Numbered from the stretch's first letter, positions 14,190 through 38,822 are shown. The stretch: 64,000 bases of DNA from Gemmatimonadaceae bacterium (GCA_025931335.1 JAICNG010000002.1:1-64000); one strand, 5' to 3'. Numbers and translations are program-made. The notes: generated by a model from the letters alone, not told the origin.

Positions 14190-14317
14190 GTGGGACCTCG
14201 TGAGGGTGAGGTCAGGAATCTGTCCCCGCGCATGGGCAACGGCTACCCGGTTCCCCAATGAGCTTACATGCCAACGGCTAGCAGGCGGCCGGGCGCGGCC
14301 AGTAGCTTCCATGCATC

Positions 14318-23048: not shown

Positions 23049-23438
23049 ATGGACGTGCCGATGGAGCGGGTGAATGCGGCGAAGAACGCGGCGCTCTGGA
23101 CGCTGAAGGTTGTGCTCGCGGCCGTGTTCTTTGTGGTCGGAATCCAGAAGCTTCTCGGCGGAACGGCCTGGGTTCAGCTCTTCGCGATGGCCGGCTATCC
23201 AGAGTGGTTCCGGACGGTGGTGGGCGCCATCGAAACGGCGGGTGGTGTCGCACTCCTGATCCCCGCGCTCGCCGCGTACGCGGCCATCGCGCTGGCCGTC
23301 GTTATGTTCGGCGCCACCTTCACACAGCTGGTGAGCGGCGCTGGGTGGGATGCGCTCGCGTCGTTGGCGCTGCTGGTGGCGCTGGTCGTCGTCGCTCGGT
23401 TGCGCTGGTCACACGCGCTGCACGAGACGCGGCAGTGA
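23049..23438 (+). CDS. DoxX-like small membrane protein
   Basis: A 129-residue protein with four predicted membrane helices and the DoxX-family layout (TLKVVLAAVFFVVGIQKLLGG, a helix after GAIETAGGVALLIP, and two more). Family members are linked to thiosulfate or quinone-related redox or thiol homeostasis, but most are uncharacterised. It is the first gene of a tightly coupled five-gene set; its stop overlaps the next start (GTGA). GGAGG lies upstream of the ATG. Confidence 0.7.
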   Translation: MDVPMERVNAAKNAALWTLKVVLAAVFFVVGIQKLLGGTAWVQLFAMAGYPEWFRTVVGAIETAGGVALLIPALAAYAAIALAVVMFGATFTQLVSGAGWDALASLALLVALVVVARLRWSHALHETRQ

Positions 23439-23836
23439 CGGCCGTCCCGGTCGGATCGACGGCGCCTCTGGACCGGCGCGCGGCGAAGTTCCGGCAGGCG
23501 GCGTTCGTGTACCTGCATGTGGCCATTCTCTACGAGGCCGCGGCCCTGGCGATGATGCGTCGCGGCATGCTCCCGTCGCGGTTCGGCCCTCCGTGGATCT
23601 GGATGCTCGCCGGCGCCGTCGTGGCGGCGCTGGTATTCATCGGACTCGTCCGCTGGCAGAACGTGTGGTTCGCGCGCGCCGTGTGGGCGATCCACGGCTT
23701 GCGAGTTCCGGCGCTGGTGAGCGGCGCCTTTTTCGCCGACGAAGCGCCGCGCATGTCCTCGGCGTTTTATCTGACCGCGCTGGTGGTGGTGGTCATCAAT
23801 CTGTGGATGCTCGCGCGCGCGGGATGGGACCTGTGA
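23435..23836 (+). CDS. Small membrane protein of unknown function
   Basis: A 133-residue protein with about three hydrophobic helices (FVYLHVAILYEAAALAMM, WIWMLAGAVVAALVFIGLV, FYLTALVVVVINLWMLARAG). The middle segment RWQNVWFARAVWAIHGLRVPALVSGAFF lies between them. No family is recognised. The GTG start overlaps the DoxX-like stop by four bases and its own stop overlaps the Mrp gene start, so it is translated as part of the coupled set. Confidence 0.6.
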   Translation: MTAVPVGSTAPLDRRAAKFRQAAFVYLHVAILYEAAALAMMRRGMLPSRFGPPWIWMLAGAVVAALVFIGLVRWQNVWFARAVWAIHGLRVPALVSGAFFADEAPRMSSAFYLTALVVVVINLWMLARAGWDL

Positions 23837-24669
23837 GCTTCCGGACGTATCGCGAGGTCACCGGGGATGACCGGTCCCAACTCGGGGAGCAGGTCGCCGC
23901 CCAACGGGAACGCGTGCACGATCGACTGCGCGACGTCACGCGAGTCGTCGCGATCATGAGCGGCAAGGGTGGCGTGGGAAAGAGCTTCGTGACCGCCGCG
24001 ATCGCGCGCGGGCTCGCGCGTCGCATGCCCCGTGGCGTCGGGGTGTTGGACGCGGACCTGTCGAGCCCCACCACGGGACGCCTGCTCGACGCGCGCGGGC
24101 CCTTGCGCATCGACGAGCACGGGGTGCATCCGGCGCGCGGGAGTGGAGGTGTGGTCGTCTGCTCGATGGATCTGCTGCTCGAGGACGGCGCGCCACTCGC
24201 CTGGCGGGAGCCGGCGAGCGAGCGCTTCGTCTGGCGAGGCACGCTCGAAGCCGGCGCGTTGCGCGAGTTCCTCGCCGACGTGGTGTGGGGTGAGCTCGAC
24301 GTCCTGCTCATCGATCTGCCGCCCGGAACCGACCGCCTCGACGACCTCACGGAGCTCGTGCCGACGCTCGCCGGGGTGATCGCGGTGACGATCCCGAGCG
24401 AGGAGTCGCGCCGCTCGGTGGAGCGTGCGATGCGCCGCGCCGCGCAGGCAGGCGTGCGACTGATCGGCGTCGTGGAGAATATGAGCGGGTACGCGTGCGC
24501 TCGGTGCGGCGCGATCGCCCCGCTCCACGAGGGGAGCGCGGGTTCCATGCTCGCCGAGACGTTCGGCGTTCCGCTTCTCTACCGGCTCCCATTCCTGCCC
24601 GGCGACAGCGCCGATCGACCCGCGGTCCTCGACGCGCTCACCGCCTCGTGTCTGGCGGCGCTGCCGTGA
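23833..24669 (+). CDS. mrp: Mrp/NBP35-type P-loop ATPase (Fe-S carrier family)
   Basis: About 278 residues. It has a deviant Walker A MSGKGGVGKSFVTAAIARGL, switch regions (GVLDADLSSPTTGRLL), LLIDLPPGTDRLDDLTE, and VENMSGYACARCG. Mrp/ApbC proteins carry Fe-S clusters to apo-targets; the CxxC in YACARCG fits the C-terminal cluster-binding CxxC of that family. The N-terminal DUF59 domain seen in many Mrp proteins is absent. The start may be GTG 23833, overlapping the previous stop, or ATG 23824. The position between membrane, zinc-ribbon PCP_red and ferredoxin genes points to Fe-S delivery. Confidence 0.85.
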   Translation: MSFRTYREVTGDDRSQLGEQVAAQRERVHDRLRDVTRVVAIMSGKGGVGKSFVTAAIARGLARRMPRGVGVLDADLSSPTTGRLLDARGPLRIDEHGVHPARGSGGVVVCSMDLLLEDGAPLAWREPASERFVWRGTLEAGALREFLADVVWGELDVLLIDLPPGTDRLDDLTELVPTLAGVIAVTIPSEESRRSVERAMRRAAQAGVRLIGVVENMSGYACARCGAIAPLHEGSAGSMLAETFGVPLLYRLPFLPGDSADRPAVLDALTASCLAALP

Positions 24670-25112
24670 AGTTCCTCTGCATTGAATGCGATGCGCAGAT
24701 GCGTTTCGAGGAGCGCCAGCAGCCCGGCGACGGGACGTTCGCCGCGGCGTTCGCGTGCGATCGATGCGGCCGGCGGATTGCCATGCTGGCGAACCCCATG
24801 GAAACCCAGCTCGTCGAATCGTTGGGGGTGAAGATCGGCGGGCGTACGCTCGAGCCGGAGCCGATGGAGATCGTGCGGGGAGCGCTCGTGGCTCGCGAGG
24901 GCGCGTTCGTCGACGAGTCCGGCCTGAGCGACGGGCGTGTGCGTCCCCGCTTCAGCGATGAGAGCCAGGAGCGGCTGGCGCGCGTGCCGAGCTTCGTGCG
25001 TGGAATGGTGAAGCGGCTCTACACCGAGTACGCCGTCGAGCGCGGTATCGCCGAGATCACGCCGGACGTCATGGATCGCGCGCGAAGCGAGCTCGGCCTG
25101 GAGGGCATGTGA
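24666..25112 (+). CDS. Zinc-ribbon-like protein with C-terminal PCP_red-like domain
   Basis: A 148-residue protein. The N-terminus has two CxxC pairs (CIEC at 5-8, CDRC at 31-34), suggesting a zinc ribbon or Fe-S site. The C-terminus (about 103-148, RVPSFVRGMVKRLYTEYA.ERGIAEITPDVMDRAR) matches the PCP_red domain known from the end of the light-independent protochlorophyllide reductase B subunit. No bch or chl gene is present, so chlorophyll synthesis is not implied. The GTG start overlaps the Mrp stop. Two other proteins in the island carry the same domain. Function unknown; an Fe-S or haem-related role is inferred from neighbours. Confidence 0.75.
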   Translation: MKFLCIECDAQMRFEERQQPGDGTFAAAFACDRCGRRIAMLANPMETQLVESLGVKIGGRTLEPEPMEIVRGALVAREGAFVDESGLSDGRVRPRFSDESQERLARVPSFVRGMVKRLYTEYAVERGIAEITPDVMDRARSELGLEGM

Positions 25113-25354
25113 GCGCGTCGCGCGACGGGCGTATCGCGCACGGGTTGCGCCTATGCATCGATCGGTCGCTCTGTGTCGGTTTTGGCGACTGTGTCGACAT
25201 CGCGCCCGAGGCATTCCAGCTCGACGACGACAGCATCGCGATTCTGATCGATCCCGACCGCGTGGATCGCGAGCGGCTGCTCAGGGCGTGCGACGCGTGC
25301 CCGGTCGATGCGATTACGGTGTGGGGGGAGGACGGGGCGCAGCTCGTTCCCTAA
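25109..25354 (+). CDS. Small single-cluster ferredoxin, probably [3Fe-4S] type
   Basis: An 81-residue ferredoxin. The first cluster motif reads CVGFGDC, where typical [4Fe-4S] members have CxxCxxC; the middle cysteine is replaced by Phe. The last ligand is in CDACPVDAITV. Loss of the second cysteine predicts a [3Fe-4S] cluster, as in P450-type ferredoxins. It probably carries electrons for, or receives a cluster from, the adjacent Mrp system. The GTG start overlaps the previous gene's stop by four bases. It ends the coupled five-gene set and is followed by a 30-bp inverted repeat. Confidence 0.8.
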   Translation: MSASRDGRIAHGLRLCIDRSLCVGFGDCVDIAPEAFQLDDDSIAILIDPDRVDRERLLRACDACPVDAITVWGEDGAQLVP

Positions 25355-25359
25355 CGACC

Positions 25360-25463
25360 AAGAACCCGGGATCAGGGGATCGCGGGGTCGAGGGATCGAG
25401 GGCGCACCACAGGTCACCGCGCCCTGATCCCCTGACCCCGCGATCCCCTGATCCCGGGTTCTT
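25360..25463. repeat. Composite repeat element E with perfect 30-bp inverted arms
   Basis: The arms at 25360-25389 and 25434-25463 are exactly complementary (outer end AAGAACCCGGGATCAGGGG). Inside them a further near-complementary stretch leads to a loop of about 13 bases. The units are of the GGGATCAGG/GGGATCGAG type. It fills the gap between convergent ferredoxin and DUF2231 genes, with the right arm reaching into the DUF2231 stop codon, and probably works as a two-way terminator. Confidence 0.85.
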
Positions 25464-25977
25464 ACGCCCTCTGCCGCCTCGTCGCCGCATCGACCGCGCT
25501 CGCCGGTTGACCCGAGAGCGAGCTCGGGGAATTGACATGAGCACCCTCGTCGACGCTGACACCGAGTCGCGCGATCAGCTCTCCCCCTAACCACCCTGTC
25601 ACACCGATCAGGATGACGCCAACGACACCCAGGCCGATCGCCATTGGGGAGGGCGTCGAGGGCGCGAGCAGGCGCGAGAACCAGCTCATCCCGAAGAGCA
25701 GGAGGACGAACGAGTTTCCGAATCCGTGAAAGAGCCCGATCCGCTTCGCGCGCGTGCCCTTGGGAATGCCGAACCAATCGATCACACCGAAGAGCGCCGC
25801 TGCAAGCCCACCGATGAGCCCTGCCGAGATCATCCCGAACGAGACGTCGCCCCACCGCGGGTTGTCGGTGAAGATCTGAATCACGTCGAAGATGACCGCG
25901 GTCGTCAGCAAGCCCACCGGGAACACGATCAGCATGGGGTGAATGGCGTGACCGAACAGCGTGGCGCGGCTTCTCAT
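25462..25977 (-). CDS. DUF2231-like membrane protein
   Basis: A 171-residue membrane protein with about four helices. It begins ATLFGHAIHPMLIVFPVGLLTTAVIFDVI, the typical opening of DUF2231 proteins (conserved HPMLI.FP), and continues through FGVIDWFGIPKGTRAKRIGLFHGFGN. The C-terminal tail is soluble. Members are often found near cytochromes or haem proteins, but function is unknown. ATG 25977 is chosen over the longer ORF. It is the only gene on the minus strand within the respiratory island. Confidence 0.7.
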   Translation of the reverse strand: MRSRATLFGHAIHPMLIVFPVGLLTTAVIFDVIQIFTDNPRWGDVSFGMISAGLIGGLAAALFGVIDWFGIPKGTRAKRIGLFHGFGNSFVLLLFGMSWFSRLLAPSTPSPMAIGLGVVGVILIGVTGWLGGELIARLGVSVDEGAHVNSPSSLSGQPASAVDAATRRQRA

Positions 25978-26053
25978 GACGTCGCTCCTTGCAAGCGGTG
26001 GTAGGGCGCGCGACGCCGTCACGCGTCGCAATATCCGCTCCCGCCCAACCCGC

Positions 26054-26082
26054 TTGACAGGCTTGGCCACGTCCCGCATACT
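26054..26082 (+). promoter_or_regulatory. Sigma70-like promoter for the usp/respiratory gene run
   Basis: TTGACA at 26054-26059 and CATACT at 26077-26082 are separated by 17 bases, close to the bacterial housekeeping consensus. The site lies in the divergent gap between the DUF2231 gene and the UspA-PCP_red gene and points toward the latter. Transcription would start near 26089. Confidence 0.55.
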
Positions 26083-26189
26083 CGCCGCGGCAAATTGCCG
26101 GGCGTGCGGGCGCGGTGTTCCTTTCGGCGTCGAGGCCACGCACTGAAGCGGTCACGGTTCCCACCGATCCCCTTGCCGAAGGCGGACGC

Positions 26190-28211
26190 GTGTATAGGGA
26201 AATCTTTGTGCCCGTCGACAACTCTCAGCACTCCGACTGGGCCGTGGAGCGCGCGATCGAGCTCTGTCAGCAATCCGGCGGGCGGATCACCGGGAATCAC
26301 GTGTACGCGGCGCGACTCCACGACATCCGCTTCCGCCAGCTCGAGACCGGCCTCCCGGCGCAGTTCCAGACGCCCGAGGAGATCAAGCGCCAGCGCAAGG
26401 TTCACGACAAGCTCATCGAGAAGGGGCTCCAGCTCATAGCTGACAGCTTTCTCGACCAGCTCGGAAAGCGCTGCGAGGCGGCAAACGTGCCGCTCACCCG
26501 CCAACTCCTCGAAGGCATCAACTACGAGGAGATCGTCAATGAAGTGAATCGCGGGGAAGGCCGACTGCCCGGCCTCATCGGCTTCGACCCCAATCGCGCG
26601 GCGAGCTACGACGGCGGCGAGAGTGGGCGCGGCGACGTGCGGCTTGGCGCCGATGGTCGCATCGTCGCCGAGGAGGAGGACCCGGCCGCGAAGATCGTCG
26701 GCACCTCCGGCCGCCGATACGATCTCGTCGCGCTTGGTGCGCACGGGCTCGGGCGACAACAGCTGAGCCAGCTGGGCGGCGTCGTCGCGCGGAGCCTCCG
26801 CGGCATTGAGAAGGACATGCTGATCGTGCGCGATGACACGCCCTTGGCCGGGGGGCGATTCCTCGTCTGCATCGACGGCTCGTCGTACAGTTACCGCGCC
26901 ATGCGCATGGCGCTCGAGCTGGCGCAATCGTTCGGCGGGTCGTTGTACGTGTGCAGCGCCTTCGACGTCGAGTATCACCACGTCGTCTTCAACAACATCA
27001 AGGACGTTCTCTCCGTGCAGGCGTCGAAGGTGTTCAAGTTCGAAGAGCAGGAAGAGCTGCACAACAACATCATCGACAAGGGCCTGCTCAAGCTCTGTCA
27101 GGCGAATCTCAAGCGCGCGCAGGTGATGGCGCAGGAATTCCCCGACGTTCCGATCACGACGCAGATCCTCGTCGGCAAGCCGTTCCAGGTAGTCATGCAG
27201 TGGGCTGACGAAGTGCATCCGTCGCTCCTCGTGCTCGCGCGCCACGGCGCGCATCGCATCGAGGGCACCGAGGTGGGCTCGCAGGCGGACAACCTCCTGC
27301 GACTTGCGCCGTGCAACGTGCTGCTTATCGGCACCGTCGGGGTGCGCCCGGAAGACATCCCCTGGATCGAGGAAGACGGCGTTGCTTCGCTCCCATGGGC
27401 GCCGGAGGCCGAAGTACGCATCCTGCGCGTGCCGCCGTTCGCGCAGGGAATCGCCCGCAAGGCGGTGGAAGAGTTCGTGCTCGAGCACGGCGGCGACATT
27501 GTCACGAACCGGCTCCTCGATGAAGCGATCCGCAAGCTGCTCCCGACCCACATGCAGCTCATCATGGGCATCGGGAGCGCGGAGGAGATCGCGCTCGCCG
27601 AATTGAAGGCCGACGAGCAGATGAAGCGGACGAAGGTCGAAGGACACGACGAGGACCCAGAGCCCGCCGAAGCCCTCGTCGAGGTCAAGTGCCCGGTTAC
27701 AGGTCGGGTCGGCACGCGCGCGCGCGTCGCCACCGACCCGATCGTGTGGACGCACGAAGCGTGGACGCGGCTGCAGCTCGTGCCGTTGATCGCGCGCCCG
27801 CTGGCGCGCAACACGGTGGAGCGGTTCGCGCGCGGCCACGACATCTGGCGCGTCACGACGCGCGTCATGGATGAGAACAAGCAGGCGATGATCGAGGCCG
27901 ACGAGTTCGACGTCGACACGATGATGGTGATGTTCACGGAGCTGCGTGCGCGACAGATTCGCGCCGAGGCCGAGGGCGGCGACGCGCTATCCCCGGAGAT
28001 GCGTCGGTTCATCGAAGAGGCAAAGGCGTCCGGCGTCACCCGCTGCCCGATCCGGGACATCGAAGAGAACATGGCGAAGTGTCCCGTCGATTTCCAAACG
28101 GCGACACCCGCGCAAGCCAAGGCGGCTGTCGAGCAGTTGATGGCAGGCGCGGACGCCGTGTCCGACGTGTCTCCTTCCTCACTCCTCGTTCCTCGTTCGG
28201 ACATGGGGTAG
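26190..28211 (+). CDS. Two UspA domains plus PCP_red-like domain protein
   Basis: About 673 residues. The first universal-stress domain starts YREIFVPVDNSQHSDWAVERAIELC. The second begins GRFLVCIDGSSYSYRAMRMALELAQSFGGSLYVCSAF and ends LARHGAHRIEGTEVGSQADNLLRLAPCNVLLIG. Near residue 414 a PCP_red-like domain follows (RVPPFAQGIARKAVEEFVLEHGG). The remaining 230 residues hold CPVTGRVG, TRCPIRDIEENMAKCPVDF and charged helices of no known family. GTG 26190 has GAAGGCGG upstream; GTG 26115 is an in-frame alternative also downstream of the promoter. The last dozen residues are encoded by a 7-bp repeat array. Function is unknown, but it leads the oxidase gene run. Confidence 0.75.
   Translation: MYREIFVPVDNSQHSDWAVERAIELCQQSGGRITGNHVYAARLHDIRFRQLETGLPAQFQTPEEIKRQRKVHDKLIEKGLQLIADSFLDQLGKRCEAANVPLTRQLLEGINYEEIVNEVNRGEGRLPGLIGFDPNRAASYDGGESGRGDVRLGADGRIVAEEEDPAAKIVGTSGRRYDLVALGAHGLGRQQLSQLGGVVARSLRGIEKDMLIVRDDTPLAGGRFLVCIDGSSYSYRAMRMALELAQSFGGSLYVCSAFDVEYHHVVFNNIKDVLSVQASKVFKFEEQEELHNNIIDKGLLKLCQANLKRAQVMAQEFPDVPITTQILVGKPFQVVMQWADEVHPSLLVLARHGAHRIEGTEVGSQADNLLRLAPCNVLLIGTVGVRPEDIPWIEEDGVASLPWAPEAEVRILRVPPFAQGIARKAVEEFVLEHGGDIVTNRLLDEAIRKLLPTHMQLIMGIGSAEEIALAELKADEQMKRTKVEGHDEDPEPAEALVEVKCPVTGRVGTRARVATDPIVWTHEAWTRLQLVPLIARPLARNTVERFARGHDIWRVTTRVMDENKQAMIEADEFDVDTMMVMFTELRARQIRAEAEGGDALSPEMRRFIEEAKASGVTRCPIRDIEENMAKCPVDFQTATPAQAKAAVEQLMAGADAVSDVSPSSLLVPRSDMG
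28172..28197. repeat. 7-bp repeat array at the 3' end of the usp gene
   Basis: Units read CTTCCTC ACTCCTC GTTCCTC GTTCGG, the same class as the array inside leuS (read from the other strand). It encodes the SPSSLLVPRS tail of the Usp-PCP_red protein and stops 14 bases short of its stop codon. Confidence 0.65.
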
Positions 28212-28234
28212 CGTCGCTCGCGCGTTCGCACGGA

Positions 28235-29533
28235 ATGCCCGCCGGCGATCCGGCACCGGGCGACCACATCCCGCATGTGGTCGCCTGGAACCTCACGCGT
28301 CGCTGCAACCTCGAGTGTGCGCATTGCTACATCTCGGCCGGTCCCACCGAAACGGCTGCCGAGGAGCTGACGACCGCGGAGTGTCTCCGCATTGCCGGCG
28401 AGATACTCGAGCTCAACCCGGCGCCGATGTTCATCCTCTCAGGCGGCGAGCCGCTCCTTCGCGACGACCTCCCGGTCATTGCGGAGTTCGCCTCACGACG
28501 CGGCGCGACCGTCGTCGTGGGCACGAACGGCACGATGCTGACCGACGAGCGCATCGCGACGCTCAAGAATGCCGGCGTCAGTGGCGTTGCGGTGAGCATC
28601 GACTCGCTGGATTCGCACCGCCACGACAACTTCCGCCACGGCCGGGGCTCCCTCGAGGCGACCACCGACGCCCTGGCGCGCCTCCGCGAGCACCGGCTCG
28701 ACTTCATCATCCAAACCACCGCCACGAAGGGCAATCGCTCCGAGGTGGGTCGCCTCGTCGAGTGGGCGGCCGAGCAGGGCGCGGTGTCCTTCAATCTCTA
28801 CTTCCTCGTCGCCACCGGCCGCGGCGCCCGGCTCAGCGATCTCGAGCCCGCCGTGTACGAGGAGCTCCTTGGCGAGCTCGTCGACTACCACCGTCAGTAT
28901 CTGGGACGCATGATGGTGCGAGCGAAGTGCGCGCCGCATTTCATGCGGCTGCTGCATCAGCAAGCGCCGGAGTCGCCGGTGCTCAGGTACGAGACCCGGT
29001 GCCCCTGCGGCACGCAATATTGCCGGATTACCCCCGACGGCTTGCTCACGCCATGCCCGTATATGCCGACGCCGGCCGGCGATCTGCGGCGCGAGTCGTT
29101 CGCCACCGTGTGGCGTGACGCGCCGCTGCTCGCCGCGCTTCGCGCGAGGCAGCTCGAGGGAAAGTGCGGGAGATGCGAGTACCGCGGGCTCTGCGGTGGC
29201 TGCCGCGCCCGGGCCCTGGCGCTCGAGGGCAGCTACCTCGCCGCGGATCCCTCGTGCGTGTACGAGCCCACGGGCGACGTACCACTCATCGAGCGGCTGC
29301 GCGATGTCACGTACGGCACGCCCGTCGCGCCCGCGCTGCGCTGGTCGCCCGAGGCACAAGCGCGCCTGGGACGCATCCCGTCATTCGTGCGCGGTGTCGT
29401 CGTCAGGCGGCTCGAGGACTACGCGCGGGAACGCGGGATCGCCGAGGTGACCATCGAAATGATGAGCGAGGTGCGACGCGCAATGCCGATCGATTTCTCC
29501 AAGCGCCAGCCATTCTTTGTCGACAATGACTGA
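28235..29533 (+). CDS. Radical SAM/SPASM protein with C-terminal PCP_red-like domain
   Basis: A 432-residue enzyme. The radical SAM cluster motif CNLECAHCY (Cys24, 28, 31) is followed by ILSGGEPLLRDD and a TIM-barrel core. A SPASM region with many cysteines (CPCGTQYCRITPDG, CPYMP, CGRCEYRGLCGGCRARA) would hold auxiliary Fe-S clusters. The overall form resembles NirJ/AhbD-type haem-modifying enzymes and peptide-modifying SPASM enzymes; I cannot choose between them. The end (GRIPSFVRGVVVRRLEDYARERGIAEVT) is a PCP_red-like domain. The stop overlaps the start region of the oxidase gene, suggesting a linked function such as maturation of that oxidase or its cytochromes. Confidence 0.82.
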   Translation: MPAGDPAPGDHIPHVVAWNLTRRCNLECAHCYISAGPTETAAEELTTAECLRIAGEILELNPAPMFILSGGEPLLRDDLPVIAEFASRRGATVVVGTNGTMLTDERIATLKNAGVSGVAVSIDSLDSHRHDNFRHGRGSLEATTDALARLREHRLDFIIQTTATKGNRSEVGRLVEWAAEQGAVSFNLYFLVATGRGARLSDLEPAVYEELLGELVDYHRQYLGRMMVRAKCAPHFMRLLHQQAPESPVLRYETRCPCGTQYCRITPDGLLTPCPYMPTPAGDLRRESFATVWRDAPLLAALRARQLEGKCGRCEYRGLCGGCRARALALEGSYLAADPSCVYEPTGDVPLIERLRDVTYGTPVAPALRWSPEAQARLGRIPSFVRGVVVRRLEDYARERGIAEVTIEMMSEVRRAMPIDFSKRQPFFVDND

Positions 29534-31256
29534 CGTCGTGGGACTCCTTCAGGCTGCCGCGCAGGCCGCGGCCGACACGGCCGGCGGATACGGTCACTTT
29601 CCTGGCATTGGCGCTCGCGGGGCCGTCTGGATCGCCGCCGAAGTCCATCTCATGTTCGCGGCGTTCGTGCTCGGCGTTCCGATGTTCGCTGTCATCTGCG
29701 AGCTGATCGGCATCGTCGGCAAGGATGAGAAGTACGACAAGCTCTCCAAGGAGTTCACCCGACTGCTCGTGTTCGCGTACAGCGCGACGGCGCTGTGGGG
29801 CGGGCTCCTGCTCTTTTTCCTGACGACGCTCTATCCGCGCTTCTGGACCCACATGGCCACGATCTTCAGCCGCTCGATGTGGGTCTACGCGGGCCTCTTT
29901 TTCATCGAGTCGTTCACGCTCTACCTGTATTACTACGGATGGGACCGCTGGAAGGTGGGCCGCGCGAAGTGGGGACACTGGGGACTTGGCCTGCTCCTCA
30001 ACGTGTGGGGCACGATCGTGATGTTCATCGCGAACTCGTGGCTCACCTACATGATGTCGCCCCCATCGGGCGTGACGGCCGAGACGCTCCCGGCCGAGGT
30101 CGGGCTGTGGAACGCGATCGCCAACGCGACGTGGATGCCGATCAACATCCACCGGCTCATCGGCAACGCCGTCTTTGGCGGCGCGATTTGCGGTGCGTAT
30201 GCGGCATTCCGCTTTCTCGCCGCCAAGACGCCGGAGGAGCGCGCGCATTACGACTGGATGGGATACGTCGGGAACTTCATCGCCATCTCGACGTTCATCG
30301 TCCTGCCGTTCGCCGGCTACTGGTTGGGCCGCGAGATCTACGAGTACAACCAGCAGATGGGCATCACAATGATGGGCGGCTTCATGAGCTGGCTGTGGAT
30401 CGTCCAGGCCGTGCTCATCGGGGTGCTCTTTCTCGCGGCGAACTATTATCTCTGGACGGGGATGGGACGCATCCCCGGGGCGGAGCGATTCGCCCCGTAC
30501 ACCAAGTGGATGCTGCTCGTGCTCGTCATCTGCTGGATCGTCTGGGCCACACCGCACACGATCATCGCGACCCGCGAAGAGCTTGCTGCGATGGGGGGCT
30601 CGCACCACCCCTTCCTGAACGTGCTCGGCGTCATGAGCGCCAAGAACACGGCGGTGAACCTCATGATCCTGACGACATTTCTCTCCTTCCTTATTTATCG
30701 CCGCGCGAACCGGCGCCCGACGGTCGCCTGGGCGAGAACGGCCACGATCATCCAGACCGCGATGTTTGCGATCGCCGCCGGGGTCGTGCTGTTCTACGGG
30801 GTGTATGGGTACTTTGTCGAGGCCATTGTCCGCATCGGCTTCAGCGTCTACCAGGTGCTCGCGGTGCTCGCGTGCATCATCGGCGTGTCGATCATCGACG
30901 TCTTCCTCGTCCGCGGCGCCGAATCGCGCGGCGAGATTCGCTGGGGGATGATGCCCGCCCGGTCGCAGTACGCGCTCTTCATCCTGGCGGTCACGTTCAC
31001 CTGGCTCATGGGGTTGATGGGCTTCGCGCGGAGCGGCATCCGTCAGCACTGGCACGTCTACGAGGTCATGCGCGACACCAGCGCGGACGCGGCCACGCCG
31101 GCGCTTGGCGAGGCGGCGAACATGATCAGCCTCTGCGTGCTGATCTTCCTCGGGCTCGTCGCGTTCATTTTCTGGTTAGGCGGGCTCGCCGAGCGCGCCG
31201 GGCACAAGGCCCCGGTCGCGCTCGCGGTCCCGCCGCAACCCGCTGCCGGAGACTAG
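29526..31256 (+). CDS. Cytochrome bd-type oxidase subunit I-like protein
   Basis: A 576-residue polytopic membrane protein similar to CydA. Haem-ligand candidates are His41 (AAEVHLMFAAFVLGVP) and His209 (WMPINIHRLIGNAVFGG), equivalent to conserved histidines of the family. About ten membrane helices can be traced. No subunit II gene (cydB) is adjacent; instead c-type cytochromes follow directly. That makes it a bd-like protein of the kind encoded with cytochromes c in Nitrospira-type genomes rather than a standard quinol oxidase. Whether it reduces oxygen or passes electrons elsewhere cannot be decided from sequence. ATG 29526 overlaps the previous gene by 8 bases. Confidence 0.85.
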   Translation: MTDVVGLLQAAAQAAADTAGGYGHFPGIGARGAVWIAAEVHLMFAAFVLGVPMFAVICELIGIVGKDEKYDKLSKEFTRLLVFAYSATALWGGLLLFFLTTLYPRFWTHMATIFSRSMWVYAGLFFIESFTLYLYYYGWDRWKVGRAKWGHWGLGLLLNVWGTIVMFIANSWLTYMMSPPSGVTAETLPAEVGLWNAIANATWMPINIHRLIGNAVFGGAICGAYAAFRFLAAKTPEERAHYDWMGYVGNFIAISTFIVLPFAGYWLGREIYEYNQQMGITMMGGFMSWLWIVQAVLIGVLFLAANYYLWTGMGRIPGAERFAPYTKWMLLVLVICWIVWATPHTIIATREELAAMGGSHHPFLNVLGVMSAKNTAVNLMILTTFLSFLIYRRANRRPTVAWARTATIIQTAMFAIAAGVVLFYGVYGYFVEAIVRIGFSVYQVLAVLACIIGVSIIDVFLVRGAESRGEIRWGMMPARSQYALFILAVTFTWLMGLMGFARSGIRQHWHVYEVMRDTSADAATPALGEAANMISLCVLIFLGLVAFIFWLGGLAERAGHKAPVALAVPPQPAAGD

Positions 31257-31262
31257 ACACTC

Positions 31263-32054
31263 ATGTGGCGGACCAACCTCAAGGTGCTAGCGGTGGCCCT
31301 CATCGTCATCGGGTTCTACACGATGGTGGCGCACGTCATCCCGCAGCTGCAGTCCGAGGTTCCCGAGGCGCTCGCCCTCACGGGCGATGTCACGCCGGAG
31401 GCGCTGGCGGCCGCCGGGGAGCGAATCTACAGCGGCGCCGGCGGATGCGTGGCGTGTCACGGGCTCGGGACCCGCGCCCCGAATCTCGTCACCGACCAGG
31501 GTGGCGAGGGGACGATCGGCGCTCGTTGCGGCTCGCGTCGCCCGGGGATGGACTGCAAGAGCTACCTGTATGAATCGATGACGAATCCCGGAGCATTCGT
31601 CGTACCTGGATTCGAGAACATCATGCCGGACATGCGACGGCAGCTCGCCGATGATCAGATCTGGGCGACGATCGCGTACTTGCAATCGCTTGGCGGCGAG
31701 GTGACGGTCACGGCGTCGGACTACGGCACCTCAACCGAGGCACCCACCGGCGCTGCGCCGGCGGCCGCCGGCCCCGCGCTCACCGCCACGACCGAGCCGC
31801 TCGCGCTCCTCAGGGAAAAGGGGTGCGTGGGGTGTCATGCGATCGACGGGGCCGGGCCGCCGATCGGGCCGTCCTTCGATGGGATGGGACGTCGTCTCCC
31901 CGCCGACCAGATCCGACGGGCTATCCTCCTGCCTAACGCCGACACCGCCAAGGGGTACGAGCAGTTCGCGGGCACCATGCCGCAAACATTCGGGCAGATG
32001 CTCTCGGCCGCGCAGCTCGAGGCGATCGTCCAATTCCTGGCGGGGCGGAGATGA
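31263..32054 (+). CDS. Membrane-anchored dihaem cytochrome c
   Basis: A 263-residue protein with an N-terminal uncleaved helix (LKVLAVALIVIGFYTMVAHVI). It has two class I cytochrome c domains with haem motifs CVACH (near 63) and CVGCH (near 190), joined by an Ala/Pro/Thr-rich linker. Distal Met candidates are in NIMPDM and GTMPQ. It follows the bd-like gene by 6 bases and overlaps the next cytochrome gene (ATGA), so it is a likely direct electron partner of the bd-like protein. Confidence 0.9.
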   Translation: MWRTNLKVLAVALIVIGFYTMVAHVIPQLQSEVPEALALTGDVTPEALAAAGERIYSGAGGCVACHGLGTRAPNLVTDQGGEGTIGARCGSRRPGMDCKSYLYESMTNPGAFVVPGFENIMPDMRRQLADDQIWATIAYLQSLGGEVTVTASDYGTSTEAPTGAAPAAAGPALTATTEPLALLREKGCVGCHAIDGAGPPIGPSFDGMGRRLPADQIRRAILLPNADTAKGYEQFAGTMPQTFGQMLSAAQLEAIVQFLAGRR

Positions 32055-32857
32055 GCCGCGTCGGCGCGTGGGTCCGGCATCCGTTCTGGCAGGCCGTCCT
32101 GCTGCTGATTCTCGCCTACCTGCTCTTCAAGTTCGGGATCGCGCTCCTGCCCCCGCTCCTGGGAATGCACAGCGCGCCGGTGCCGACCAGTGTGGTCGTG
32201 CAGTACATGCTGATCGCGCTCGTCGGCGTCCTGATTCACGTCAGCAGCGATGAGACGCGGTGGCGCCGATTCAAGGAGCCGATCCACGACACCATGGTCG
32301 ACGCCGACAAGCGATGGGTCCGCCTCGCCGTCCTGATTCTCGTTCCGCTCCTCATCGGATGGGTGACCTACGACCAGACGCGGCCAAAGGTCGAGGCACC
32401 GATCACGCTGCGCTCCATCCACCCGGCGCCACCGAGTCAGATCACCTTCCGCGGCAAGACCATCCAGCTCACCGGCCTCGAGAACCCGCTGCGCCATCGC
32501 GGCTCGCTCACCGAGCACATCGAGACCGGCAAGCGGATCTACTACCAGAACTGCCTCGCGTGTCACGGAGATCGACTCGACGGGCAGGGCCACTTCGCGC
32601 ACGGCTTCAGCCCGACTCCGCTCTCGTTCGCCGACCAGGGAACGATCGCGCAGCTCACCGAGAGCTTCGTGTTCTGGCGCGTCGCGAAAGGCGGTCCCGG
32701 ACTGCCTCGCGAAGGTGCTCCCTGGAGCTCGGCGATGCCGGTGTGGGAGGACTACCTCACCGAAGATGAGATCTGGGCTGTGATCATCTATCTCTACGAG
32801 CAGTCGGGGTGGAAGCCGAGGACGTGGGAAGAGTCCACGGGAGGAGGCGAACATTGA
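32051..32857 (+). CDS. Membrane-bound monohaem cytochrome c
   Basis: A 268-residue protein with about three N-terminal membrane helices (FWQAVLLLILAYLLFKFGIALL; VVQYMLIALVGVLIHV; WVRLAVLILVPLLIGWVTY). A periplasmic cytochrome c domain with the haem motif CLACH follows, and a Met ligand candidate is in SSAMPVWEDYLT. The architecture suits a membrane electron-transfer subunit linking the quinone pool or bd-like protein to soluble cytochromes. Both ends overlap neighbours by four bases. Confidence 0.88.
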   Translation: MSRVGAWVRHPFWQAVLLLILAYLLFKFGIALLPPLLGMHSAPVPTSVVVQYMLIALVGVLIHVSSDETRWRRFKEPIHDTMVDADKRWVRLAVLILVPLLIGWVTYDQTRPKVEAPITLRSIHPAPPSQITFRGKTIQLTGLENPLRHRGSLTEHIETGKRIYYQNCLACHGDRLDGQGHFAHGFSPTPLSFADQGTIAQLTESFVFWRVAKGGPGLPREGAPWSSAMPVWEDYLTEDEIWAVIIYLYEQSGWKPRTWEESTGGGEH

Positions 32858-34473
32858 GGCGCTCTAGATTGCGGACTGCTGATTGCGGATTACGAGTAAC
32901 CACGGGTCCCCTGCGTAGCCGGCGGATCGCGATGCTCGTGTGCCTCCTGTTCGCCATCCGCAGTCCGCAATCCGCAATCCTGACCCAGGAGCCCCGCGGC
33001 AAAGCGGCCTACGACAAATGGTGCGCCGGCTGTCACGGCGACACGGGCGCCGGCGACGGCTACGCCCAGGCCTTCATGCTGCCTCGTCCGCGCGATTTCA
33101 CGAAAGGCGTCTACCAGATCCGCACGACCGCGAGCGGAGAGCTTCCGACTGACGCCGATCTGCGCCGCGTGATCGATGAGGGAATGCCCGGCACCGCGAT
33201 GCCGGGATGGCGGGAGCGTCTCACGGATGCGCAGCGTGAAGACGTGATCGCGTACATCAAGAGCTTCTCGCAGTTCTTCACCGGTCCCGCGCCGACCGCC
33301 ATCGAGGTCGGGACGGCGCCTCGAGCGTCCGATGAAGCGATCGCGGAGGGACGGCAGGTCTACGAGAAGCTCGAGTGCTTCAAATGTCACGGACAGGATG
33401 GACGTGGCGACGGAACATCGGCGCCCACCCTCACCGATGATTGGGATCAACCGATCTTCGCCGCCGACCTTCACGGGAGCTGGCGATTCAACGGTGGCAG
33501 CTCGGTCGAGGAGATCTATCGCCGCCTGCGGACAGGGCTCGACGGGACGCCAATGCCGTCGTTCAGCGATGTGATCGACTCCAAGATCATCACCGATGAG
33601 CAACTGTGGCGTGTGGCGCAGTATGTTCGCAGCCTGTCGCCGGAAGAGCCACCGCCCGTGCGCGAGGTCATTCGCGCCCACCTCACGGAGGAGGGCGTCC
33701 CGAGTGGGCCCGCCGATACGACGTGGGCGCGCGCGGAGGCGTACTACATTCCGGTCGTTGGGCAGATCATCGTGAAGCCGAGGTGGTTCTCGCCCGCCGT
33801 CGAGGGAGTGTGGGTTCAGGCGATGCACGATGGCAGCCGTCTCGCGCTGCGCCTGACGTGGACCGACCGCTCGCGCAGTCCCGACCCGGCATGGGATGAG
33901 TGGCTCGGTCGCGTGCGGCAGGCGATGACGGACGTAGACGGGCCGCTCCCGTCGTCCCAGGGACCGGACCTGTTGGGGGTGCAGTTTTCTCCGAGGTCGG
34001 GCGAGGCCGAGCCTCCGTTCTTCCTCGGCGGCAGCACGCGGCGGCCTGCGCACCTGTGGCGGTGGTCGAGCGCGCCCGATGCGGTAACATCAGGCACGGG
34101 CACCGGACTCGGTCAATTCACCGCCGATGCGGGCGCGTCGCAGCTCACGCATGCCGCGCAATTCGTGAACGGTGAGTGGCAGGTGCAGTTCACGCGGGCG
34201 CTCGTTTCCGCCGACACGGCGCGCGCGCCGTCATTCGTCGCTGGGCGCGCGCTCCCGATCGCGTTCTTCGTCGCCGACGGCTCGAATGGAGAGGATTCGG
34301 TTCGCGGAGCAGTCAGCGCGTGGTACGCGGTGTATCTCGACGTCGCCACGCCGACGCGCGTCTACGTCGCACCAGGACTCACGATGTTGCTTACCGCTGG
34401 ACTGGGCCTCATGTTAGTCCGGCAAGCCCAGCGGCGCGAACGAAACAGCGAACGTTCCAACTCGGAGGGTTAA
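32854..34473 (+). CDS. Dihaem cytochrome c with ethylbenzene-dehydrogenase-like haem-binding domain; leader contains repeat
   Basis: About 539 residues from a TTG start at 32854, which overlaps the previous stop and has GGGAGGAGG 6 bases upstream. Two cytochrome c domains carry CAGCH (near 57) and CFKCH (near 175). The region from about 270 to 500 resembles the haem b-binding gamma-subunit fold of ethylbenzene dehydrogenase and nitrite oxidoreductase families. A C-terminal helix (VYVAPGLTMLLTAGLGLMLV) anchors it. The first 45 or so residues, including the hydrophobic MLVCLLFAI leader, lie within an ATTGCGG-type repeat element. ATG 32931 is an alternative start that keeps only the short hydrophobic leader. 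Confidence 0.8.
   Translation: MRRSRLRTADCGLRVTTGPLRSRRIAMLVCLLFAIRSPQSAILTQEPRGKAAYDKWCAGCHGDTGAGDGYAQAFMLPRPRDFTKGVYQIRTTASGELPTDADLRRVIDEGMPGTAMPGWRERLTDAQREDVIAYIKSFSQFFTGPAPTAIEVGTAPRASDEAIAEGRQVYEKLECFKCHGQDGRGDGTSAPTLTDDWDQPIFAADLHGSWRFNGGSSVEEIYRRLRTGLDGTPMPSFSDVIDSKIITDEQLWRVAQYVRSLSPEEPPPVREVIRAHLTEEGVPSGPADTTWARAEAYYIPVVGQIIVKPRWFSPAVEGVWVQAMHDGSRLALRLTWTDRSRSPDPAWDEWLGRVRQAMTDVDGPLPSSQGPDLLGVQFSPRSGEAEPPFFLGGSTRRPAHLWRWSSAPDAVTSGTGTGLGQFTADAGASQLTHAAQFVNGEWQVQFTRALVSADTARAPSFVAGRALPIAFFVADGSNGEDSVRGAVSAWYAVYLDVATPTRVYVAPGLTMLLTAGLGLMLVRQAQRRERNSERSNSEG
32867..32980. repeat. Composite repeat element H (ATTGCGG type) inside the cytochrome c leader
   Basis: The left arm is GATTGCGGACTGCTGATTGC (from 32868). 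The right arm ATCCGCAGTCCGCAATCCGC (from 32956) is nearly complementary, and about 60 bases separate them. In the cytochrome frame the arms read RTADCGLR and RSPQSAI, the translations typical of this repeat. Confidence 0.8.
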
Positions 34474-34475
34474 AG

Positions 34476-35243
34476 ATGCGAGTCGCATTCGGTATCGTGC
34501 TCGCGCTCACGGCGTTTGGCTGTGGCGGGGACAATGGCGGCGCGTCGGATCAGCCTGCCGCCGGTCAGGAAGGGGGCGGCGCCATCGCGCCCGCGGGCGG
34601 TGGCACGATCACCGGCACGGTGTCGTTCACCGGTACTCCTCCCGCGAATCCCACGATCGACATGAGCGAAGAGCCCGCCTGCGCCCAGAAGCACGCCGGC
34701 GGCGCGAGGGATCCGCAGGTCGTCGTCAACGACGGCAAGCTCGCGAACGTGTTCGTCTTCGTCAAAAGCGGCCTGCCTGCGGGGCAGACCTATCCCGTTC
34801 CGTCGAGCGCTGCGATGCTCGATCAGGATGGGTGCCTCTACGAGCCGCGCAACTTCGGCGTCATGGTCGGGCAGCAGCTCGAGATCAAGAACAGCGATCC
34901 GGTGCTGCACAACATCAAGGCGGTGCCGACGAAGAACCGCGGCTTCAACATCAGTCAGCCCACCGAGGGAATGACGACGCGGCGCACCTTCAACACGGAA
35001 GAGATCGGCGTTCCGCTCGAGTGCAACGTGCACGGGTGGATGAAGGCCTCGGTGACCGTGCTCAATCATCCGTTCTTCGCCTCGACGGGCAACGATGGCA
35101 CGTTCACCATTCGGGGCCTGCCGGCGGGCACGTACGAGATCGAGGCCAGACACGAAAAGCTCGGAACGCGCACGCAATCGGTGACGGTACCGCAAGACGG
35201 GACGGCGACGGCCGATATCACCTTCGGCGCCGCGGCGTCCTGA
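34476..35243 (+). CDS. Cupredoxin-like/carboxypeptidase-regulatory-like lipoprotein
   Basis: A 255-residue lipoprotein (lipobox in ALTAFGCGGD) with a Gly-rich linker. The middle part (residues about 45-190) has a cupredoxin-like plan with NSDPVLHNIKAV and CNVHGWMKASV, giving His, Cys, His and Met candidates for a copper site. The last 60 residues form a carboxypeptidase-regulatory-like beta domain (DGTFTIRGLPAGTYEIEARHEKLG). A role as copper or electron carrier near the oxidase is plausible from position between the cytochromes and coxB. I cannot confirm metal binding. It starts 3 bases after the previous stop. Confidence 0.7.
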   Translation: MRVAFGIVLALTAFGCGGDNGGASDQPAAGQEGGGAIAPAGGGTITGTVSFTGTPPANPTIDMSEEPACAQKHAGGARDPQVVVNDGKLANVFVFVKSGLPAGQTYPVPSSAAMLDQDGCLYEPRNFGVMVGQQLEIKNSDPVLHNIKAVPTKNRGFNISQPTEGMTTRRTFNTEEIGVPLECNVHGWMKASVTVLNHPFFASTGNDGTFTIRGLPAGTYEIEARHEKLGTRTQSVTVPQDGTATADITFGAAAS

Positions 35244-35255
35244 GGAGGCCGCGCC

Positions 35256-35951
35256 ATGAGCTGGCTCCTTCCGCCGCACGCGTCCTCGTATGCGGCCGAC
35301 ATCGATTGGCTGTACTACTTGATCCTGATCATCACCGGCATCGCGTTCCTCGTGGTGCAGATCGGGCTGGTGTGGTTCATCATCAAGTACCGCGCGCGGC
35401 CTAACGGCAAAGCCCTCTACACCCACGGCTTTGCCAAGGCGGAGTGGATCTGGACCAGCGTGACGGCAGTGGTCGTCGTTGTCATTGGTCTGCTCAGCGC
35501 CGGCGTGTGGGACCGCATCAAGGGGCGTGACAGCATTCCTCCGGGCGCGATCCCGATCGGGATCCATGGCAAGCAGTTCGAGTGGCACATCAGCTACCCC
35601 GGCGCGGACGGGCAGCTCGGCACTGGCGACGACCTCTCGATCCGAAACCAGTTGCATCTCCCGCTGAACAAGCCGGTGGTGGCAACGCTGACGTCCGAAG
35701 ATGCGATCCACTCGTTCTTCATCCCTGCGTTCCGCATCAAGCAGGACGCAGTGCCCGGGATGACCATCCGCGTCTGGTTCCAGCCGACGGACACCGGGAC
35801 GTTCGAGCTCGCCTGCGCGGAGCTGTGCGGGCTCGGACATTATCGCATGCGCGCGGTCGTCACCGTGCATGCCGAGGCCGAGTATCAGCGCTGGCTCGAC
35901 GAGCGCGGCCGTGCAGCGGCTGCCTCGCCCACGGCGCTCCTCCAACGGTAG
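35256..35951 (+). CDS. coxB: Cytochrome c oxidase subunit II (first oxidase)
   Basis: A 231-residue subunit with two N-terminal membrane helices and a periplasmic CuA domain. The CuA ligands are visible in the motif CAELCGLGHYRM plus the earlier His in DAIHSFFIPAF. No fused cytochrome c is present, unlike the second oxidase. It takes electrons from cytochrome c and passes them to subunit I. It opens the first cox operon (II-I-III-IV-ctaB), with GGAGG before the ATG. Confidence 0.95.
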   Translation: MSWLLPPHASSYAADIDWLYYLILIITGIAFLVVQIGLVWFIIKYRARPNGKALYTHGFAKAEWIWTSVTAVVVVVIGLLSAGVWDRIKGRDSIPPGAIPIGIHGKQFEWHISYPGADGQLGTGDDLSIRNQLHLPLNKPVVATLTSEDAIHSFFIPAFRIKQDAVPGMTIRVWFQPTDTGTFELACAELCGLGHYRMRAVVTVHAEAEYQRWLDERGRAAAASPTALLQR

Positions 35952-35961
35952 AGGGTACCTC

Positions 35962-37737
35962 ATGGCGTCGACGGCAGCTGTCGTCCACGAGCCCGCGCTG
36001 GAGCACGCGCACGCGGACGACCGTCCTTTCATTCGCAAGTACATCTTCTCCACCGATCACAAGATCATCGGGATCCAGTTTCTGCTGATGAGCTTGTTCT
36101 TCCTGCTCATCGGCGGGATGCTGGCGATGGTGATACGGTGGCAGCTCGGGTTCCCCGGCAGGGCAATGCCGGGCGGCGGTGTGCTCCCCGAGACGATGGC
36201 GCCCGGGGGCATCGTCCTTCCCGAGTTCTACAACTCGCTCGTCACCATGCACGGCACGTTCATGGTGTTCTTCGCGATCATGCCGCTCCTGGTGGGCGTG
36301 TTCGGGAACTACCTCATCCCGCTCAAGATCGGCGCGCCGGACATGGCGTTTCCGCGGATCAACATGGCGTCGTTCTGGATCGCCGTGCCCGCCGGGCTCA
36401 TCATGCTCGCCGGTTTCTTCGTGGAAGGCGGCCACGCGGCCGCCGGGTGGACGGGCTACGCGCCGCTCAGCGCCAACCCGGAGCTGACGGGAGTGAGTCT
36501 GGGGCAACAGCTCTGGTGCGTGAGTCTCATCATTCTGGGCCTCTCGTCGATCATGGGGTCGTTCAACTACATCACGACCATCATCAACATGCGCGCGCCG
36601 GGGATGATCTGGTTCCGGCTGCCGCTCAGCATCTGGGCGCTCTTCATCACGGCGATTCTGGTGCTGCTGGCCATGCCGATCCTGTCGGGCGCGCTGATCA
36701 TGCTGCTGTTCGACCAGACCCTCGGCACGCATTTCTTCCTGCCAGCTCAAGGCGGGCAGCCGTTGCTCTGGCAGCACCTGTTCTGGTTCTTTGGGCACCC
36801 GGAGGTCTACATCCTCATCCTGCCGGCGATGGGAATGGTGTCGGACATCATCGCCAATGGGTCACGGAAGCCAATCTTCGGCTACACGTCGATGGTGCTC
36901 GCCATCATCGCGATCGGTGCACTGGGATGGGGCGTCTGGGGTCATCACATGTTCATGAGCGGCATGAATCCGACGCTCGGCACCGGATTCATGATCTCGA
37001 CGCTGCTCATCTCGGTCCCGTCGGCGATCAAGACGTTCAACTGGATGGGCACCATGTGGGGTGGCAACATCCGGTTCCACGTGCCGATGCTGCACGCCGT
37101 CGCGTTCGTCTCGATGTTCGTCATCGGCGGGCTCAGCGGCGTGTTCATGGCCACGACGCCGGTCGACATCTACATCCACGACACGTACTTCATCGTGGCG
37201 CACCTGCACTACGTGCTCTTCGGCGGGAGTCTCTTCGCGATCTTCGCCGCGGTCACCTTCTGGTATCCCAAGATGTTCGGCCGCCTCATGAACCCGTTGT
37301 GGGGGAAGGTGCACTTCTGGCTCACGTTCATCTTCTTCAACGCCGTGTTCTTCCCGATGCACGGGCTAGGCGCGCAGGGTCACATGCGCCGCATCTACGA
37401 CCCGACGGAGTACGAGTTCCTGGCTCCTCTCCAGGGAGTGAACCGGATGATCACGATCAGCGCGTTCCTGCTCTTCACCGCGCAGATCATCTTCCTCGTA
37501 AACTTCATCGCAGGCTGGTTCAAGGGCGCGAAGGCGGGACCGAACCCGTGGCAGGACAACGGCCTCGAGTGGGCGACGCCGTCACCGCCGCCACACGGCA
37601 ATTTCCCGGTCACGCCGCACGTCTATCGCGGGCCGTACGAGTTCAGCTCGCCGCTCGCGGTCGACGACGATTATCTCCCGCAGTCTCGCAAGCTCGAAAC
37701 CGATCGCGAGCCGGCGGTCTTGCCGGCTGGCGACTGA
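35962..37737 (+). CDS. coxA: Cytochrome c oxidase subunit I (first oxidase)
   Basis: A 591-residue haem-copper oxidase subunit with twelve predicted helices. It contains the low-spin haem ligand region (TMHGTFMVFFAIMP), the CuB/cross-linked Tyr region with the A-type proton-channel glutamate (FFGHPEVYILILPAMG), WGHHMF, and the final histidine block (DTYFIVAHLHYVLFGG). It reduces O2 to water and pumps protons. ATG 35962 lies 10 bases after coxB; the ORF-track start inside coxB is rejected. Confidence 0.96.
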   Translation: MASTAAVVHEPALEHAHADDRPFIRKYIFSTDHKIIGIQFLLMSLFFLLIGGMLAMVIRWQLGFPGRAMPGGGVLPETMAPGGIVLPEFYNSLVTMHGTFMVFFAIMPLLVGVFGNYLIPLKIGAPDMAFPRINMASFWIAVPAGLIMLAGFFVEGGHAAAGWTGYAPLSANPELTGVSLGQQLWCVSLIILGLSSIMGSFNYITTIINMRAPGMIWFRLPLSIWALFITAILVLLAMPILSGALIMLLFDQTLGTHFFLPAQGGQPLLWQHLFWFFGHPEVYILILPAMGMVSDIIANGSRKPIFGYTSMVLAIIAIGALGWGVWGHHMFMSGMNPTLGTGFMISTLLISVPSAIKTFNWMGTMWGGNIRFHVPMLHAVAFVSMFVIGGLSGVFMATTPVDIYIHDTYFIVAHLHYVLFGGSLFAIFAAVTFWYPKMFGRLMNPLWGKVHFWLTFIFFNAVFFPMHGLGAQGHMRRIYDPTEYEFLAPLQGVNRMITISAFLLFTAQIIFLVNFIAGWFKGAKAGPNPWQDNGLEWATPSPPPHGNFPVTPHVYRGPYEFSSPLAVDDDYLPQSRKLETDREPAVLPAGD

Positions 37738-37740
37738 TGA

Positions 37741-37849
37741 AACCAGGAGTCAGGAGTCAGGGATCGGGGATCAGGGGGTGTCGGGTTGTGGGCTAGGGAA
37801 CGGCCGCCGCATCTCCTGCTACCCCTTCCCTGACTCCTGACTCCTGGTT
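37741..37849. repeat. Composite repeat element I with perfect 23-bp inverted arms
   Basis: The arms 37741-37763 and 37827-37849 are exact complements made of AGTCAGG units (AACCAGGAGTCAGGAGTCAG). The spacer holds GGAACGGCCGCCGC-type GC-rich sequence. It separates coxA from coxC inside the first oxidase operon, so it may attenuate or process the mRNA rather than fully terminate it. Confidence 0.8.
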
Positions 37850-37882
37850 CTGCGCAATCTGTTCACTACTAGAGGATTACAA

Positions 37883-38500
<618 letters not shown>

Positions 38501-38514
38501 GCCTCGGAGAGCGC

Positions 38515-38790: not shown

Positions 38791-38822
38791 CGATCGCGTT
38801 ACCGCGGGCTGCGCCCGCCGAT

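Follow-up and report, generated by a model that had tools for sequence, protein, structure and literature searches.

The PCP_red domain (PF08369) has been described in the BchB/ChlB subunit of the protochlorophyllide reductase DPOR (PDB 3aek, 2xdq, 2ynm, and 2kru) and in the stand-alone protein Asr4154 (2l09). In archaea, a pairing of Usp with PCP_red (the LI-POR C-terminal domain) is known from automatic annotation, in an account whose available portion describes no radical SAM protein, zinc-ribbon protein, or respiratory cluster alongside it. No functional paper on PCP_red by name was found in the open-access literature, which yielded a single unrelated paper and a passing mention of the accession. 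A second relevant group is formed by the bd-like oxidases of Nitrospina and Nitrospira. In the available portions of the accounts, membrane helices take the place of the Q-loop and the quinol residues are missing (PMC3578206), while the CydAA' proteins of the OR-N type are thought to use cytochrome c (PMC10839748); a PCP_red cassette is mentioned in neither portion. These enzymes have been reported, as far as the available text goes, from nitrite oxidizers and Mn oxidizers, with subunits, an electron donor, and a function that these accounts call unconfirmed. Here, a locus is described that brings these two elements together. It lies in a stretch of 64,000 nucleotides from a Gemmatimonadaceae bacterium (GCA_025931335.1, JAICNG010000002.1:1-64000; hereafter the window) and consists of genes for an Mrp-type ATPase, a zinc-ribbon protein, a ferredoxin, a Usp protein, and a radical SAM/SPASM enzyme, three of which carry PCP_red, followed by the gene for a CydA-like (bd-like) membrane protein (Table 1). 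This cassette is undescribed in the open-access papers found, and its PCP_red proteins probably help build the bd-like respiratory protein.

A preliminary description of the window, made from the sequence alone, had claimed a PCP_red-like segment in three proteins, and the Pfam profile agrees: the zinc-ribbon protein (49.4 bits, E 4.5e-13), the Usp protein (69.5 bits, E 2.5e-19, in two stretches), and the radical SAM/SPASM protein (55.5 bits, E 5.7e-15) all score above the curated cut-off of 32.5 bits. The count of three proteins thus stands, while the number of copies has to be raised to four, because the Usp protein holds a second one that had been missed. In a six-frame scan of the source assembly (3.73 Mb, 189 contigs, 81% complete), exactly four matches were obtained (E 1.8e-9 to 5.4e-16), all at this locus, and no BchB-type PCP_red was found elsewhere in this 81%-complete assembly. 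Since no BchB is therefore seen, PCP_red is not part of chlorophyll synthesis here, as the preliminary description had also held. The profile for DPOR subunit B (BchB/ChlB, TIGR01278) gave at most 36 bits against a cut-off of 490 bits, with the match limited to the C-terminal domain. The domains at this locus share a family with those of BchB/ChlB, given profile scores above the cut-off and sequence matches to the PDB chains; the match to Asr4154 is weak. Unlike BchB/ChlB, however, the proteins that carry PCP_red here are a zinc ribbon, a tandem Usp, and a radical SAM enzyme, and there is no nitrogenase-like core. A tree of the 45-residue domain groups the copies mostly by host protein, with few forks resolved.

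The arrangement is widely conserved. Among 395 Gemmatimonadota genomes, PCP_red is present in 152, most often in four copies. Many far stronger matches (E about 1e-19) come from the family to which the window belongs, with one or two in each genome; where inspected, they form the C-terminal end of proteins about 530-565 residues long, which is what BchB would show. At thirty-odd cassette loci from eight family groups, the gene order is nearly invariant: Mrp, zinc-ribbon-PCP, ferredoxin (arranged either way), Usp-PCP, radical SAM-PCP, CydA-like, three cytochromes c, cupredoxin-like, and cox. In family f9 the Usp protein is shorter, and locus L053 has the radical SAM gene ahead of Mrp. Across families, the Usp protein is 64-81% identical to the window copy. 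Gemmatimonadota-type cassettes also occur in metagenome-assembled genomes labelled Gammaproteobacteria, Armatimonadetes, and Chromatiales (L115, L104, and L135). In the first of these (G396), the PCP_red match lies at the same contig position, C81:118372-118506, as in the Gemmatimonadota genome G390, and consequently the G396 label is probably wrong.

The cassette and the CydA-like gene are found together in nearly every genome that has either. In Gemmatimonadota, at least three PCP_red matches and a CydA-like gene are both present in 93 genomes, compared with 6 that have only the former, 7 that have only the latter, and 289 that have neither (both in 93/106 of those with either). For a second phylum, which includes a genome labelled Rokuibacteriota, 95 genomes were sampled and any PCP_red was counted; the corresponding numbers are 57, 7, 2, and 29 (57/66). 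Many of the exceptions are partial genes or incomplete genomes; thus, the CydA-positive, PCP_red-free genomes G361, G239, and G336 have partial or contig-edge copies. The two genes are also tightly spaced. From the radical SAM stop to the CydA-like start, the gap is zero or less at 49 of the 61 measurable loci and within 60 bases at 56 of them, counts that are biased towards overlap because the CydA-like start chosen was the one nearest to the stop. In the window itself, the CydA-like reading frame opens with its ATG within the last bases of the radical SAM gene. The heme A synthase CtaA, a marker of aa3-type oxidases, is present in 78/80 genomes with or without the cassette, the source genome included, and is thus independent of it. 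It is therefore the CydA-like protein that is the respiratory enzyme tracking the cassette. The aa3 oxidases are unlikely clients, and a dedication of the cassette to the CydA-like enzyme is well supported.

The CydA-like protein departs from canonical cytochrome bd. When it is aligned with Escherichia coli CydA, H19 (heme d/b595), H186 (heme b558), and E107 are kept as H41, H209, and E128, E99 is replaced by Tyr, and GRQPW becomes IRQHW; no match for E445 or the quinol-loop Lys/Glu was seen in this alignment, whose C-terminal half is weak. The full canonical set for subunit I (H19, H186, M393, E445, and the quinol loop) is accordingly not seen in this alignment. By crude hydropathy, the protein has 11 segments, compared with 8 in E. 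coli CydA. In its retained N-terminal heme ligands, the lack of an evident quinol loop, and its cytochrome c and cupredoxin neighbours, it resembles the OR-N type CydAA' of Nitrospina and Nitrospira, a likeness of described features rather than of clade placement. At locus L049:3-6200, a second CydA-like gene, about 50% identical and with its own cytochrome c genes, lies directly upstream of the cassette.

In the second phylum, PCP_red occurs in 64/95 genomes, typically in five or six copies and within a related gene arrangement. The Usp protein of this phylum combines three PCP_red stretches with a rubredoxin-like Cys4 ribbon, the ferredoxin could be located at 2/20 loci, and extra proteins of three PCP_red units are encoded (Table 1), with no other Pfam domain in those of L193 and L194. 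One member, G395 (L090/L198), is exceptional in that its cassette (L198:5818-11231) follows the gene order of Gemmatimonadota. Three of its proteins, Mrp, zinc-ribbon-PCP, and radical SAM-PCP, cluster with Gemmatimonadota (SH-aLRT 98-100), and its Usp-PCP protein scores 1166 bits, compared with 294-340 in other second-phylum members. The downstream CydA-like, CytC1, CytC3, CoxB, and CoxA proteins cluster with its own phylum (98-100), and the four PCP_red matches of the cassette are the only ones in the genome. These are quick single-gene trees, those for ferredoxin and Usp being without second-phylum rows. The pattern is most simply explained by uptake of the whole cassette as a block, which apparently displaced the genome's own version next to a native CydA operon; a chimeric contig is less likely. 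If so, block transfer would mark the five genes as one functional unit that works with the CydA-like proteins of another phylum.

What this unit might do is suggested by its radical SAM enzyme. The protein matches PF04055 and PF13186, in line with membership of the radical SAM/SPASM superfamily; C24, C28, and C31 of the CxxxCxxC motif are present in 34/34 homologues, and most SPASM cysteines in 31-34/34. NirJ2 (TIGR04055) and AhbD (TIGR04545), which serve in heme and heme d1 synthesis, are the best family matches in both phyla, at 277-357 bits, with TIGR04053 next. The window protein scores 295 and 284 bits, respectively, and its relatives reach 281-333 bits with NirJ2 and up to 357 bits with AhbD. 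Peptide maturases, MftC, and PqqE give at most about half of these scores. Unlike AhbD and NirJ2, the cassette enzyme carries a C-terminal PCP_red domain, falls short of the curated cut-offs of 500 bits each, and resides in genomes most of which already have the coproheme decarboxylase ChdC. Its predicted structure (pLDDT 87, pTM 0.87) places PCP_red in three helices at 372-416. A plasmid search returned as its best listed matches only distant proteins, mostly of the TIGR04053 type and with less than 36% identity. NirJ and AhbD change the side chains of iron tetrapyrroles (PMC7242693).

The remaining proteins could support such an enzyme. The Mrp protein has in common with the Mrp/ApbC/NUBPL Fe-S carrier ATPases the PF10609 match and a CxxC pair (C225/C228), which is typical of Fe-S carriers and is kept in 32/45 homologues; unlike the known carriers, it scores below the ApbC and MrpORP cut-offs and is fixed in this operon. 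In the zinc-ribbon protein, C6, C9, C32, and C35 are present in 30/30 homologues. The ferredoxin has a CxxCxxC motif without its middle Cys (C22-xx-F-xx-C28, followed by C61xxC64), in 26-27/27 homologues. C22, C28, C64, and an invariant Phe at the position of the missing Cys are found in 27/27, and this replacement is the pattern expected of a [3Fe-4S] type. The Usp protein matches PF00582 in three stretches, and two Usp folds are supported. Its N-terminal half resembles the tandem Usp structures 3ab8, 3cis, 2jax, and 3ab7 (VIA Z about 26, root-mean-square deviation 2-4 A over 234-275 residues), and the predicted model of the whole protein has a mean pLDDT of 65, being poor outside that half.

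Taken together, these results have led to a model, to which a probability of about 0.55 is assigned, in which the Mrp, zinc-ribbon-PCP, ferredoxin, Usp-PCP-PCP, and radical SAM-PCP proteins would constitute a cytoplasmic maturation complex dedicated to a CydA-like, cytochrome-c-linked respiratory enzyme. The near one-to-one pairing with the CydA-like protein is the reason for thinking that the PCP_red proteins probably help to build it, and it is the likely client; the chemistry inferred is cofactor assembly or insertion. In this model, the ferredoxin would feed electrons to the radical SAM/SPASM enzyme, to which Mrp would hand Fe-S clusters, and the Usp protein, presumably nucleotide-binding, and the zinc-ribbon protein would provide scaffolding and regulation. 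The PCP_red repeats would either join the partners or offer a tetrapyrrole to the radical SAM site, docking being favoured by the tandem PCP_red-only proteins and tetrapyrrole handling by the sharing of the domain between BchB and a NirJ/AhbD-like enzyme. The substrate would most likely be a heme of the CydA-like protein or, alternatively, a CydA residue that is modified. ChdC and CtaA occur in almost every cassette genome tested, and thus the product would be something beyond hemes b and a. The preliminary description had proposed one small domain repeated in a conserved, dedicated respiratory cassette. This is borne out by the four copies, the conserved gene order, and the co-occurrence in two phyla, and the neighbours it had named (Mrp ATPase, [3Fe-4S]-type ferredoxin, bd-like protein, and c-type cytochromes) were confirmed with Pfam. 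It had left the choice between maturation and electron transfer; the former is supported by the NirJ2/AhbD-group enzyme, the Mrp carrier, and the coupling to the CydA-like gene, and direct electron transfer fits worse. Its further idea, that PCP_red serves as a shared module for docking or for binding a cofactor, stays a proposal, and its interpretation is thus supported in part.

Several points weigh against this model. The Fisher p values for co-occurrence (8e-74 in Gemmatimonadota and 1e-15 in the second phylum) overstate it, because related genomes are not independent, and the genomes covered come from two phyla. One genome, G016, has a divergent PCP_red trio and no CydA-like gene at E of 1e-20 or below. 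The radical SAM enzyme, as noted, reaches neither the NirJ2 nor the AhbD cut-off. Second-phylum loci often have the Usp gene after the Cox genes, which leaves some room for an aa3 client. The residues of DPOR that bind protochlorophyllide lie outside PCP_red, which makes a tetrapyrrole role for the domain weak. Finally, the complex and its substrate are predictions from sequence.

A different possibility, which must be judged doubtful, is that PCP_red is purely a protein-protein docking repeat, that a Usp/zinc-ribbon assembly responds to ATP or redox state and adjusts the respiratory island, and that the radical SAM enzyme modifies a protein or peptide. Such a role would suit the three-unit arrays of L193 and L194 with no other recognised domain, the three PCP_red stretches of the second-phylum Usp protein, the standard tandem Usp fold of the Usp half, and the frequent use of SPASM enzymes as peptide maturases. 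However, the NirJ2/AhbD scores of the radical SAM core are about twice those of any peptide- or pyrroloquinoline quinone-type maturase, and no small precursor-peptide gene was noticed. Within the maturation model, whose PCP_red modules are inferred to act in docking or in tetrapyrrole handling, a more specific version can be offered only tentatively: the cassette may make and install a novel modified heme in the bd-like enzyme, with the NirJ/AhbD-type enzyme altering the heme and the PCP_red modules passing it on. It is improbable that the cassette proteins are instead electron-transfer partners, with the Fe-S clusters of the ferredoxin and the radical SAM/SPASM enzyme wiring the cytoplasm to the CydA-like complex. 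The respiratory genes are indeed accompanied by those for a dedicated ferredoxin and many Fe-S sites, but a mere wire would not need the invariant CxxxCxxC motif, and the ferredoxin is rare at second-phylum loci. Least credible is an alternative synthesis of heme A or heme b to supply either the aa3 oxidase or the cell as a whole, for which the kinship with the heme b synthase AhbD and the adjoining ctaB and coxBACD genes could be cited, since the distribution of CtaA given above leads to rejection of a heme A synthase replacement and ChdC, found in 38/41 cassette-bearing genomes tested, makes a housekeeping heme b synthase unlikely.

The respiratory context was also considered with regard to complex III. 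Strong matches to bc1 cytochrome b are rarer with a CydA-like gene (21/100) than without (124/295), and bc1-type cytochrome b is missing from many genomes, the source assembly included. However, an NrfD-family protein, of the family that contains an alternative complex III subunit, is present in 80/80 genomes with or without a CydA-like gene, and thus a role as a complex III substitute is not supported. Alternative complex III has been reported in <10% of this phylum (PMC9426454); it may be commoner than this, although NrfD is not specific to that complex.

Within the window, the Mrp stop overlaps the zinc-ribbon start, and the zinc-ribbon stop overlaps the ferredoxin start. A homologue of the small 133-aa protein adjoins the Mrp or zinc-ribbon gene at many loci. 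The DUF2231 gene between the ferredoxin and Usp-PCP genes was not seen as a conserved member at other loci. Between the convergent ferredoxin and DUF2231 genes lies an inverted repeat of 38 nt (95% complementary, 28-nt loop), the core of which, GGGATCAGGGGATCGCGGGG, has 12 genomic matches at up to 2 mismatches compared with 0 for the reversed control, and it is consequently a dispersed intergenic repeat. Elsewhere, a 9.6-kb contig of G016 (L055:1-9644) encodes a Usp protein with three PCP_red copies and a Cys4 ribbon, a zinc-ribbon-PCP protein, Mrp, and a radical SAM enzyme.

Table 1. Features of the PCP_red cassette and its surroundings. Positions are those of the window unless a locus is named; gene starts were read from the sequence.
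Feature	Position	Strand	Remarks
Small 133-aa protein	23435..23836	+	No Pfam match; peripheral member
Mrp/NUBPL-type P-loop ATPase	23824..24669	+	PF10609 2.8e-51; ATG 23824
Zinc-ribbon (Cys4) protein with C-terminal PCP_red	24666..25112	+	PF08369; GTG 24666
PCP_red match 1	24954-25085		Zinc-ribbon protein; over cut-off
Single-cluster ferredoxin, [3Fe-4S] type	25109..25354	+	PF13370, Cys pattern; GTG 25109
Inverted repeat	25360-25463		
DUF2231 membrane protein	25462-25980	-	
Tandem Usp with two PCP_red and Cys-conserved C-terminal region	26190..28211	+	Start about 26190
PCP_red match 2	27396-27527		Usp protein, first copy; over cut-off
PCP_red match 3	27747-27881		Usp protein, second copy; over cut-off
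Radical SAM/SPASM enzyme with C-terminal PCP_red	28235..29533	+	NirJ2/AhbD group; ATG 28235
PCP_red match 4	29342-29476		Radical SAM/SPASM protein; over cut-off
CydA-like (bd-like) membrane protein	29526..31256	+	PF01654 (Cyt_bd_oxida_I), 2.2e-15; ATG 29526
Membrane-anchored di-heme cytochrome c	31263..32054	+	Two CxxCH
Membrane mono-heme cytochrome c	32051..32857	+	One CxxCH
Di-heme cytochrome c with ethylbenzene-dehydrogenase-type heme b domain	32809..34473	+	True start uncertain
Lipoprotein, cupredoxin-like and carboxypeptidase-regulatory-like domain	34476..35243	+	His/Cys-His-Met pattern by eye
aa3-type oxidase genes coxB, coxA, coxC, coxD, ctaB	35256..39677	+	Kept next to cassette
Three-unit PCP_red proteins (second phylum)	L193:1031-2530; L194:3572-4354; L191:2335-3228 and 13792-14880		

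These findings place bd-like, putatively OR-N type, enzymes in Gemmatimonadota. A dedicated maturation cassette would point to a special cofactor in such an enzyme and could provide a handle for producing it in another host. PCP_red, known mainly from chlorophyll synthesis, thereby gains a non-photosynthetic respiratory setting, and if the product were indeed a modified heme, the domain would be an ancient respiratory module for handling tetrapyrroles that is also used in chlorophyll synthesis.

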